Part shown: in pieces, positions 14,271 to 15,997 of the stretch
How the letters are laid out: the number at the start of each line of letters is the position of its first letter
How positions within the stretch are numbered: the stretch's first letter is position 1
NCBI GenBank assembly: GCA_905480145.1
Contig: CAJQPA010000006.1
Coordinates: forward strand, 1-55,612
DNA length: 55,612 bases
Direction of reading: 5' to 3'
From: an uncultured Flavobacteriales bacterium
GTDB taxonomy: Bacteria > Bacteroidota > Bacteroidia > Flavobacteriales_D > Crocinitomicaceae
The notes under the pieces: model-generated
The model's database searches: none
What the model was told of the DNA's origin: nothing
Seen by the model: only the letters and a program-made list of their open reading frames with translations
Position numbers and translations under genes: made by a program

Positions 14271-15386
14271 ATGAGTGATTTTGTTGTATCAGCTAGAAAG
14301 TATAGACCTCAAACCTTTGACACGGTTGTTGGGCAAAAGTCGATTACGACTACTCTAAAGAATGCAATTAAAAACGATCATTTGGCCCAAGCATTTCTAT
14401 TTGCAGGTTCTAGAGGAGTTGGTAAAACAACTACCGCAAGAATACTTGCCAAAACAATTAATTGTTTTGATAGAACGGAATCAATTGAAGCTTGTGACAA
14501 ATGTGAATCTTGTGAATCGTTCAATTCGGGAAGCTCTCTGAATGTATTTGAATTGGATGCGGCCTCAAACAACTCAGTTGAAGATATCCGAAGTCTTATT
14601 GATCAGGTTCGTGTTGGACCTCAATTAGGAACACATAAAGTCTACATTATCGATGAGGTCCATATGTTATCTTCAAATGCTTTCAATGCTTTCTTAAAAA
14701 CACTAGAAGAGCCACCAAAACATGCGATATTCATTCTGGCAACTACAGAAAAACATAAAATAATTCCTACCATTCTTTCTAGGTGTCAAATCTTTAATTT
14801 CAATAGAATTAAGGTGTCAGACATTTCGAATCATTTGGCCTATATAGCCAAAGAAGAGAATGTTGAGGCAGAATCTAACGCTTTGCATGTAATTGCTCAA
14901 AAGGCAGATGGAGCTCTTCGTGATGCACTCTCGATATATGATCAAATTGTTACATTTTCAGGAAACAGCATCACGTATGCTGGAGTTATTGAAAATTTAA
15001 ACATTCTTGATTACGATTACTATTTTCGAATTATAGATGCTACTCAACAAGAAGACATTCCGAAATCTTTGCTATTACTCAATGATGTAATGACCAAAGG
15101 GTTTGACGGACATAGTTTCTTAGTAGGATTGTCAGATCATTATCGGAATTTATTGGTTTGTAAAGATGCTCGAACATCAAGTCTTCTTGAAGTCAGTGAT
15201 GAAGTTGAGAAAAAGTTTATTGAACAATCCAAAGCAATTGATGCGAATCAAATCATTAGAGCTCTTGGTGTTTTGAGCCAAGCGGATGTCAATTATAAAC
15301 AATCGAAAAATCAACGACTGCTGGTTGAAATGGCTTTAATGCAATTGTGTTCCATCAAACAGGAGCTCGAAAAAAAAAAAGCCTAA
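14271..15386 (+). CDS. dnaX: DNA polymerase III gamma (short DnaX product, zero frame)
   Basis: The zero-frame product is 371 residues: AAA+ clamp-loader domains I-III of DnaX. It shows Walker A GSRGVGKTT (~residues 43-51), a zinc site (CDKCESC with an upstream Cys), Walker B IIDEVHML, and sensor/arginine-finger segment TILSRCQIF. It stops at TAA 15384-15386 directly after an 11-A run. The frame one base back stays open to 15997 and encodes a normal tau C-terminus, so the complete gene spans both. A gamma-like protein ending right after domain III is what the E. coli short form looks like (~430 aa there). Here the short form is the zero-frame product and tau needs a -1 shift. A miscounted homopolymer is the alternative. 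Confidence 0.93.
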   Translation: MSDFVVSARKYRPQTFDTVVGQKSITTTLKNAIKNDHLAQAFLFAGSRGVGKTTTARILAKTINCFDRTESIEACDKCESCESFNSGSSLNVFELDAASNNSVEDIRSLIDQVRVGPQLGTHKVYIIDEVHMLSSNAFNAFLKTLEEPPKHAIFILATTEKHKIIPTILSRCQIFNFNRIKVSDISNHLAYIAKEENVEAESNALHVIAQKADGALRDALSIYDQIVTFSGNSITYAGVIENLNILDYDYYFRIIDATQQEDIPKSLLLLNDVMTKGFDGHSFLVGLSDHYRNLLVCKDARTSSLLEVSDEVEKKFIEQSKAIDANQIIRALGVLSQADVNYKQSKNQRLLVEMALMQLCSIKQELEKKKA

Positions 15387-15398
15387 CGGATCCCGTTA
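15361..15398 (+). promoter_or_regulatory. dnaX: Putative dnaX -1 frameshift / slippage signal
   Basis: Three elements occur in order: an SD-like AGGAG (15361-15365), an 11-A run (15370-15380) that reads as E-K-K-K in the zero frame, and a perfect 6-bp hairpin TAACGG/CCGTTA (15384-15389 and 15393-15398, loop ATC) that contains the zero-frame stop. A tandem slip on A AAA AAA moves reading into the frame that starts AGC at 15380. The hairpin starts 3-6 nt after the heptamer, depending on which heptamer slips. The same arrangement of SD, slippery A run and stem-loop is known for E. coli dnaX. An A run this long could also cause RNA polymerase slippage, as in Thermus dnaX. Confidence 0.75.
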
Positions 15399-15997
15399 AA
15401 ATTATTCCTTTCTTAAATCAAAATTTACGCGACAAAGCTCAAAAAGCGGTTTCAAAACCTGCCACTAAAGTACCAGTCCAAAAAGCGTATGAAAAGCCAG
15501 AAGCGAAAGTATTAAAAGCGCCTTCAGGTCAACTCAAGACTTCTCATGTTTCGATTAAAAAAATGATGGAGAAAAAAGAAGAGATTGAAGGCAATGAAAA
15601 GATTGATTTAAATAACATGCCTCGTAATGATTATCATTATGACGAATTAATTCAATGTTGGAAAAGTTTTGCTTTCACCATGAAAAAAGAAGGAAAAGGA
15701 ACTTTTTACAATGCCCTCATTAAACGAGATCCAAAGTTAAAATCTGGTGATACATACATTCTTGAGCTGGACAATCAAATTCAAATTGATTACATCCAAC
15801 CTATTCTCATGGACTTACTGAGTCATATCAGAAAGCGTCTAAAGAACTACGAGATTAAAGTTGAAATGGTTTTATCTGAAAACCCTCAGGAGGAAGTTAA
15901 ATTTCAAACTGGGAATGATAAATTTAAAGCTTTGGCTAGGAAAAATCCAAATTTGCATTCGTTGAAGAATCTTCTCAATTTGGACATTGAATTTTAA
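15380..15997 (+). CDS. dnaX: Tau-specific C-terminal region of DnaX (reached by -1 frameshift)
   Basis: This 205-residue extension begins SLTDPVKIIPF after the A run and has no start of its own in a suitable place; the GTG at 15347 overlaps the upstream domain in another frame. It contains a lysine- and proline-rich linker (KAVSKPATKVPVQKAYEKPEAK), then a folded-looking tail (YHYDELIQCWKSFAFTMKKEGKGTFYNALIKRDPKL) ending in KNPNLHSLKNLLNLDIEF. This is the pattern of tau C-termini in Bacteroidota, which bind polymerase and helicase. Joined to the zero-frame part it gives a 575-residue DnaX, a normal tau length for the phylum. Confidence 0.88.
   Translation, partial: SLTDPVKIIPFLNQNLRDKAQKAVSKPATKVPVQKAYEKPEAKVLKAPSGQLKTSHVSIKKMMEKKEEIEGNEKIDLNNMPRNDYHYDELIQCWKSFAFTMKKEGKGTFYNALIKRDPKLKSGDTYILELDNQIQIDYIQPILMDLLSHIRKRLKNYEIKVEMVLSENPQEEVKFQTGNDKFKALARKNPNLHSLKNLLNLDIEF

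Follow-up and report, generated by a model that had tools for sequence, protein, structure and literature searches.

The window analyzed here, a stretch of 55,612 nucleotides from an uncultured Flavobacteriales bacterium of the family Crocinitomicaceae, carries a dnaX gene in which the clamp-loader domains and the tau C-terminal part are in different reading frames that meet at a run of 11 A's. The source draft genome (2.44 Mb in 63 contigs, 90.3% complete) has a single match to the dnaX DNA. The features of the locus are as follows.

14271..15386, + strand: dnaX zero-frame ORF, 371 aa; gamma-like short product with clamp-loader domains I-III
15361..15365, + strand: SD-like AGGAG, of which the conserved part is the Glu codon GAG at 15363-15365
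15370..15380, + strand: A11 run, the putative slippage site; at least A10 in 110/110 run-bearing family genomes
15384..15386, + strand: zero-frame stop TAA, end of the short product; same codon in 31/32 genus genomes
15384..15398, + strand: 6-bp inverted repeat (TAACGG-ATC-CCGTTA, 3-nt loop), a weak hairpin and probably incidental
15397..15399, + strand: +1-frame stop, at which translation would terminate on transcripts that have gained two A's or lost one
15380..15997, + strand: -1-frame continuation, 205 aa, comprising a linker and the tau C-terminal domain; tau would be about 575 aa

Between 15369 and 15386 the zero frame reads GAA AAA AAA AAA GCC TAA, and the -1 frame stays open from the run onward until a TAA at 15995-15997, with 205 codons counted from the AGC at 15380. 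One extra A or a -1 shift adds these 205 codons, for about 575 aa in total, and both non-tau frames are closed soon after the run, the zero frame at 15384 and the +1 frame at 15397. The A11 is the longest run of A or T in the whole window. An earlier sequence-only reading of this DNA had placed the AGGAG, the A-run, the hairpin, and the stop correctly, as re-reading the sequence confirms. It had also taken the zero frame as a short form with clamp-loader domains I-III, in agreement with the Pfam and TIGR02397 matches to clamp-loader domains in the N-terminal part of DnaX, and had recognized a tau C-terminus in the 205 residues of the -1 frame, which match the tail of the full-length gamma/tau model PRK14971 (E 7e-21).

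Pfam has no match for the window's tau C-terminal part, and its DnaX_C model matches one of 45 members (E 0.076). A structure model of the C-terminal part has a mean pLDDT of 78.4; its matches to DnaA domain I (with a best E of 1.6e-3) and to DciA are weak, none of them reaching E 0.001. Searching PDB sequences with an alignment of the C-terminal part gave nothing meaningful. A common fold is shared by tau domain V, DnaA domain I, and DciA, and the predicted tau C-terminal domain weakly resembles the latter two.

Conservation of the A-run in the genus and family

The genus sample comprises 34 genomes, of which 32 reach the site, with G010 and G030 ending before it. In 31 of the 32, a run of A10-A11 is followed by the dnaX stop at an identical codon and tau lies in the -1 frame, in line with the sequence-only reading that polarity is swapped and that tau needs the shift; in the remaining genome, G004 (L184), the run is longer by one A and the tau frame is open. 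Among these 31, the -1 ORF of L007 runs off its contig, and those of L014 (70 aa) and L187 (90 aa) are broken, reflecting either assembly error or decay.

At the family level, 150 genomes were searched and 146 matched, and the junction was read in a subset spread over genera, leaving out L164, in which the contig ends before the site; 14 duplicates were dropped from the comparison as a whole. After de-duplication, the run is present in 113 of 129 genomes (A10 in 96, A11 in 15, and A12 and A13 in one each), and the other 16 are without a run of nine or more. Tau is in the -1 frame in 111 of the 113 run-bearing genomes and in the zero frame in two. A10 followed by 4 nt and A11 followed by 3 nt place the stop at an identical position, indicating that run length varies by substitution rather than by indel and that the frame is kept.

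These patterns bear on the simplest alternative, also raised in the sequence-only reading, that the homopolymer has been miscounted, the true run being 12 A's and dnaX a single frame. Homopolymers are error-prone, and in both L037 and L184 the run is longer by one A and the tau frame is unbroken. Nonetheless, the frame break recurs across many assemblies, in 111 of the 113 family genomes with a run, and the same stop is reached through substitution and not indel. As an account of the run-bearing family in general, assembly error is thus refuted, and we consider it extremely improbable for the window. From the sequence comparisons, the A-run seems to be a real, long-conserved slippage site for a short and a long protein.

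The -1 ORF might alternatively start independently, such that no fused tau is made; there is a -1-frame GTG at 15347, and a run-less sister clade (see below) seems to have taken that path. However, 58 of the 108 run-bearing family genomes with tau in -1 lack any ATG, GTG, or TTG in that frame between its preceding stop and a point 70 nt beyond the first base of the run, and the -1 ORF in the run-bearing family therefore depends on a shift. An ATG or GTG in the 40 nt that follow the first base of the run is present in only one of the 108, and in the other 50 genomes the start codons are mostly at one offset (-23, 44 cases), within zero-frame codons. Two separate proteins from the window's dnaX is an explanation to which we give very little credence.

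Sequence constraints at and around the run

If the shift were ribosomal, two tRNA-Lys would slip -1 on A_AAA_AAA, aided by AGGAG and the hairpin, with polarity swapped relative to E. coli. The window has all of the anatomical elements for such an event, and the family direction, almost always -1, would fit ribosomal shifting if taken alone. The run itself, however, is longer than such an event requires. Ten A's are invariant in all 110 run-bearing family genomes (A10-A13), synonymous positions included; the run's Glu codon is GAA in 101/101 (gene-body GAA frequency, 75%), and its Lys codons are AAA in 220/220 (gene-body AAA frequency, 78%). Because ten fixed A's exceed the seven of a -1 ribosomal heptamer, this constraint favors slippage by RNA polymerase. 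Moreover, the codon closing the A_AAA_AAN heptamer drifts (AAT in 38, AAG in 30, AAC in 25, and AAA in 17; n = 110). In the window, A_AAA_AAA is followed by GCC, and there is no A_AAA_AAG heptamer in the zero-frame phase; this heptamer is described as far more shift-prone in E. coli (Atkins 2016), and at 30/110 the family has no preference for it.

The source genome has at least nine runs of A10 or longer, of which the dnaX run is one. Of the other eight, those at G000:C28 12629 (L323, clearly) and G000:C9 54676 (L321, probably) lie within long sense ORFs, which counts against the slippage reading of the dnaX run, though these runs might also slip; the idea that the dnaX run is unique in the genome was set aside.

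Upstream of the run, 38 of 110 family genomes with a run (24 of 32 in the genus) carry AGGAG in full, and 98 of 110 carry its GAG core. At the Glu codon located two before the run, GAG is used in 98/107, compared with 25% in the gene body, making this column the third most biased of 229. This is a nucleotide-level signal that purely transcriptional slippage leaves unaccounted for, and a ribosomal contribution may therefore exist. The greatest bias among the 229 columns lies elsewhere, at codon ~129 of the window's DnaX (the Glu of DEVH, column -238 from the run), which is GAG in 97% of run-bearing family genomes (gene body, 25%).

All six pairs of the hairpin are present in 24/109 family genomes and 9/32 in the genus, and the outer four pairs in 63/109 and 29/32, respectively; versions with a slid partner account for two at most. 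The folding energy is -5.3 kcal/mol, compared with -4.7 kcal/mol for synonymous shuffles (mean z -0.28, n = 108), and Rfam has no RNA family at the site, with one chance match, HOTAIR_1, far below the gathering score. The outer pairs in the genus speak for a ribosomal stimulator, but with the six pairs so poorly kept in the family and an energy hardly below that of the shuffles, we reject the hairpin as the main conserved stimulator. Alignment of dnaX from relatives, which the sequence-only reading had proposed as a check, upholds its A-run and its stop, and of its hairpin no more than a weak 4-bp core.

Whether an SD-like element could act in these bacteria is a related concern, as Bacteroidia ribosomes are reported to sequester the anti-SD, yet prfB frameshifting is kept in many (McNutt 2021). 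A 16S match was obtained in 3 of 34 genus genomes, and the anti-SD core CCTCC is intact in L307 and L309, a point in favor of ribosomal shifting. The 16S-like match of L308 has a 3' end without the anti-SD core, and looks aberrant, being either divergent or chimeric. At all 10 prfB loci fetched from the genus, RF2 is encoded by a single open frame (363-374 aa), and a simple motif search found no exact prfB shift motif at the gene start in any of them, which counts against a ribosomal mechanism.

The run and the tau frame across the Bacteroidota

Outside of the family, 80 named relatives were fetched and 128 phylum genomes were searched, with the junction read in 88 of the latter (28 best-scoring loci and 60 picked to spread over families). 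After de-duplication, 125 of 161 Bacteroidota have A9-A13 at dnaX codons ~354-400, in all three phases. For the 290 distinct genomes read within and outside of the family, a run of A9 or longer is present at the junction in 238, and in dnaX codons 1-340 in one, so the junction run is not a matter of chance. Even the 65% GC genomes L293 and L295 have A10 at the junction, with no A-run longer than three in the first 345 codons. By these sequence counts, the window's site is part of a phylum-wide dnaX feature. For the 36 outside-family genomes scored as run-less, 25 have one long zero frame (532-641 aa), seven have no stop before the fetched sequence runs out, and four are short (L089, L101, L118, and L119); L089 has A9 in spite of its score, the scan ending 60 bases before the contig end.

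The tau frame is far from constant. Among the 125 run-bearing genomes outside of the family it is the zero frame in 87, the -1 frame in 36, and the +1 frame, the rarest polarity, in two (L240 and L103). We constructed a FastTree phylogeny of 225 DnaX N-termini, 173 of them with the run, in which the family's run-bearers with tau in -1 were sampled to ~40; the set retains a few duplicate genomes, which should add no frame changes. On this one tree the tau frame changes at least 25 times, or 14 times once 11 isolated tips are dropped. Two MAG records titled Chryseobacterium gleum (L047) and Chitinophaga pinensis (L049) have DnaX within the window's family on the tree, and their titles may be wrong or the bins mixed.

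Variation of shift direction among orthologues is given by Antonov et al. 2013 (PMC3711429) as a mark of transcriptional realignment, and since the direction for tau varies across the phylum, transcriptional realignment is favored by that criterion.

Stops in the third frame

A stop in the frame used by neither product matters only if transcript length varies, and enrichment of such stops therefore points to transcriptional slippage. A +1-frame stop lies within six codons of the run in 107/108 family genomes compared with 57.2 expected from synonymous shuffling, and third-frame stops outside of the family number 70/87 against 34.7 expected when tau is in the zero frame (named relatives, 40/48; phylum sample, 30/39) and 35/42 against 24.2 when tau is in -1 (13/16 and 22/26, respectively), the genomes being related and hence not independent tests. 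Both other frames stop within six codons in 52/65 cases at the junction, compared with 8% of 194 positions further down the tau ORF. Within the family, a +1 stop no more than four codons past the zero-frame stop is present in 104/108 run-bearing and 9/16 run-less genomes (Fisher p 4e-5 ignoring relatedness, with a small control and counting from the zero-frame stop).

Taken together, the fixed A10, the drifting heptamer end, the third-frame stops, the varying direction, and the weak hairpin favor RNA polymerase slippage, and the parallel with the E. coli ribosomal cassette that had been drawn from the sequence alone is, given the same five observations, not supported as it was stated. A ribosomal -1 frameshift as the sole mechanism we consider quite improbable, in spite of the conserved GAG. 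A dual mechanism, in which transcriptional slippage on the long run and ribosomal slippage via GAG/AGGAG jointly set the tau:gamma ratio, would accommodate both the run and its third-frame stops, as signs of transcription, and the conserved GAG, through possible SD pairing; but GAG may serve another purpose, the full AGGAG is in only about a third of the run-bearing family genomes, and we think this arrangement unlikely. The reading that we regard as probable, from the comparative patterns at this site, is that dnaX contains a programmed slippage site at which RNA polymerase slips on the A-run.

A sister clade without the run

The 16 run-less family genomes, from five genera (L134-L137, L150, L158-L162, L178, L185, L207, L208, L211, and L212), form one clade (FastTree support 99) that is sister to the rest of the family. 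Loss of the run is the simpler reading, because the nearest outgroups, L052, L092, and L103, have A10. Each of these genomes has one dnaX match, with a zero-frame stop still near codon 370-373 (355 in L185, by a scripted count) and a retained -1 ORF of 203-220 aa. When aligned by eye, 13 of the 16 have an ATC that begins four bases before the stop; L185, the first branch of the clade, has ATG at the residue position of the others' ATC, and L160 and L211 have ATG and GTG, respectively, one codon before the ATC position and overlapping the stop. GGAGG lies just upstream in L134, L136, and L150. For seven of the 16, inspection by eye shows the -1 frame opening no more than 10-13 nt ahead of the stop and nothing obviously slippery there. 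These alignments suggest that in the run-less clade dnaX may have become a pair of cistrons that overlap, the downstream one often starting at AUC. L134, L136, and L150 have A_AAA_AAG in phase, and a ribosomal shift is possible in these three.

Discussion

We propose that RNA polymerase stutters at the A-run of the window's dnaX, yielding mRNAs with differing A counts. Faithful A11 mRNA would be translated to the stop at 15384 and give a gamma-like subunit of 371 aa, mRNA with one extra or two missing A's would enter the -1 frame and give tau, and mRNA with two extra A's or one missing would meet the +1 stop at 15397 and again give a short product. An additional ribosomal -1 shift on the same A's is possible, perhaps aided by the upstream GAG. 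We infer the transcriptional nature of the slippage, its efficiency, and the roles of both products; we note that some AT-rich genomes may not slip at A9, as discussed in Baranov 2005.

The swapped polarity is not new, having already been described by Antonov et al. 2013 (PMC3711429), whose GeneTack dnaX cluster has 17 two-ORF dnaX genes from 12 genera. Nine of the 17 have A10, and three green sulfur bacteria have A9, A8, and A7; as in the window, the zero frame ends after domain III and tau is in -1 at about A10. According to that account, recoding is needed for tau and transcriptional realignment is proposed, a view repeated by Atkins 2016. Relative to those 17 genes, the layout is traced here through a family and a phylum, with frame reversals and a run-less clade. 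Among the matches listed in a search of part of the literature, judged by titles and abstract openings, there is no paper describing the run across the phylum, the reversals of tau frame, or the clade without a run.

Among other recoded genes, the dnaX of Thermus thermophilus undergoes transcriptional slippage (Larsen 2000, as described in Baranov 2005). Both it and the window have a homopolymer of at least nine A's, stops in both alternative frames, and two products, but in Thermus tau is in the zero frame, and in the window it is in -1, where the site may operate in the Thermus manner with a different polarity; the Thermus arrangement is the one found in 87 of the 125 run-bearing Bacteroidota outside of the family. 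The E. coli dnaX cassette also resembles the window, in having two products and an A-rich slip site flanked by an upstream SD-like element and a downstream stem-loop. It differs in that tau is in the zero frame and gamma arises by the shift, whereas the site described here has no conserved A_AAA_AAG, a poorly kept stem-loop, and a run longer than the heptamer requires. Shigella mxiE provides a parallel in that transcriptional slippage is needed for the long product, although there the run is of U's and the gene is unrelated (Baranov 2005).

A broader scenario is that slippage is so efficient that the tau frame is near-neutral and drifts through single-base indels, and that the sister clade lost the run and came to have a separate cistron for the tau tail, starting in most species at a conserved AUC. 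We offer this tentatively, as a possibility that we rather doubt; the frequent changes of tau frame do provide a natural test of whether slippage makes the reading frame nearly neutral. Were it true, the run-less bacteria would have a clamp loader with the tau tail as a separate subunit, and the clade raises the question of whether the tau tail can act as a separate protein.

What had been suspected as a sequencing error thus becomes a conserved recoding site in an essential replication gene, and most of the sampled Bacteroidota have a long A-run at the dnaX junction. If the run works as we infer, automated gene prediction may break DnaX in two or annotate it wrongly in many genomes.
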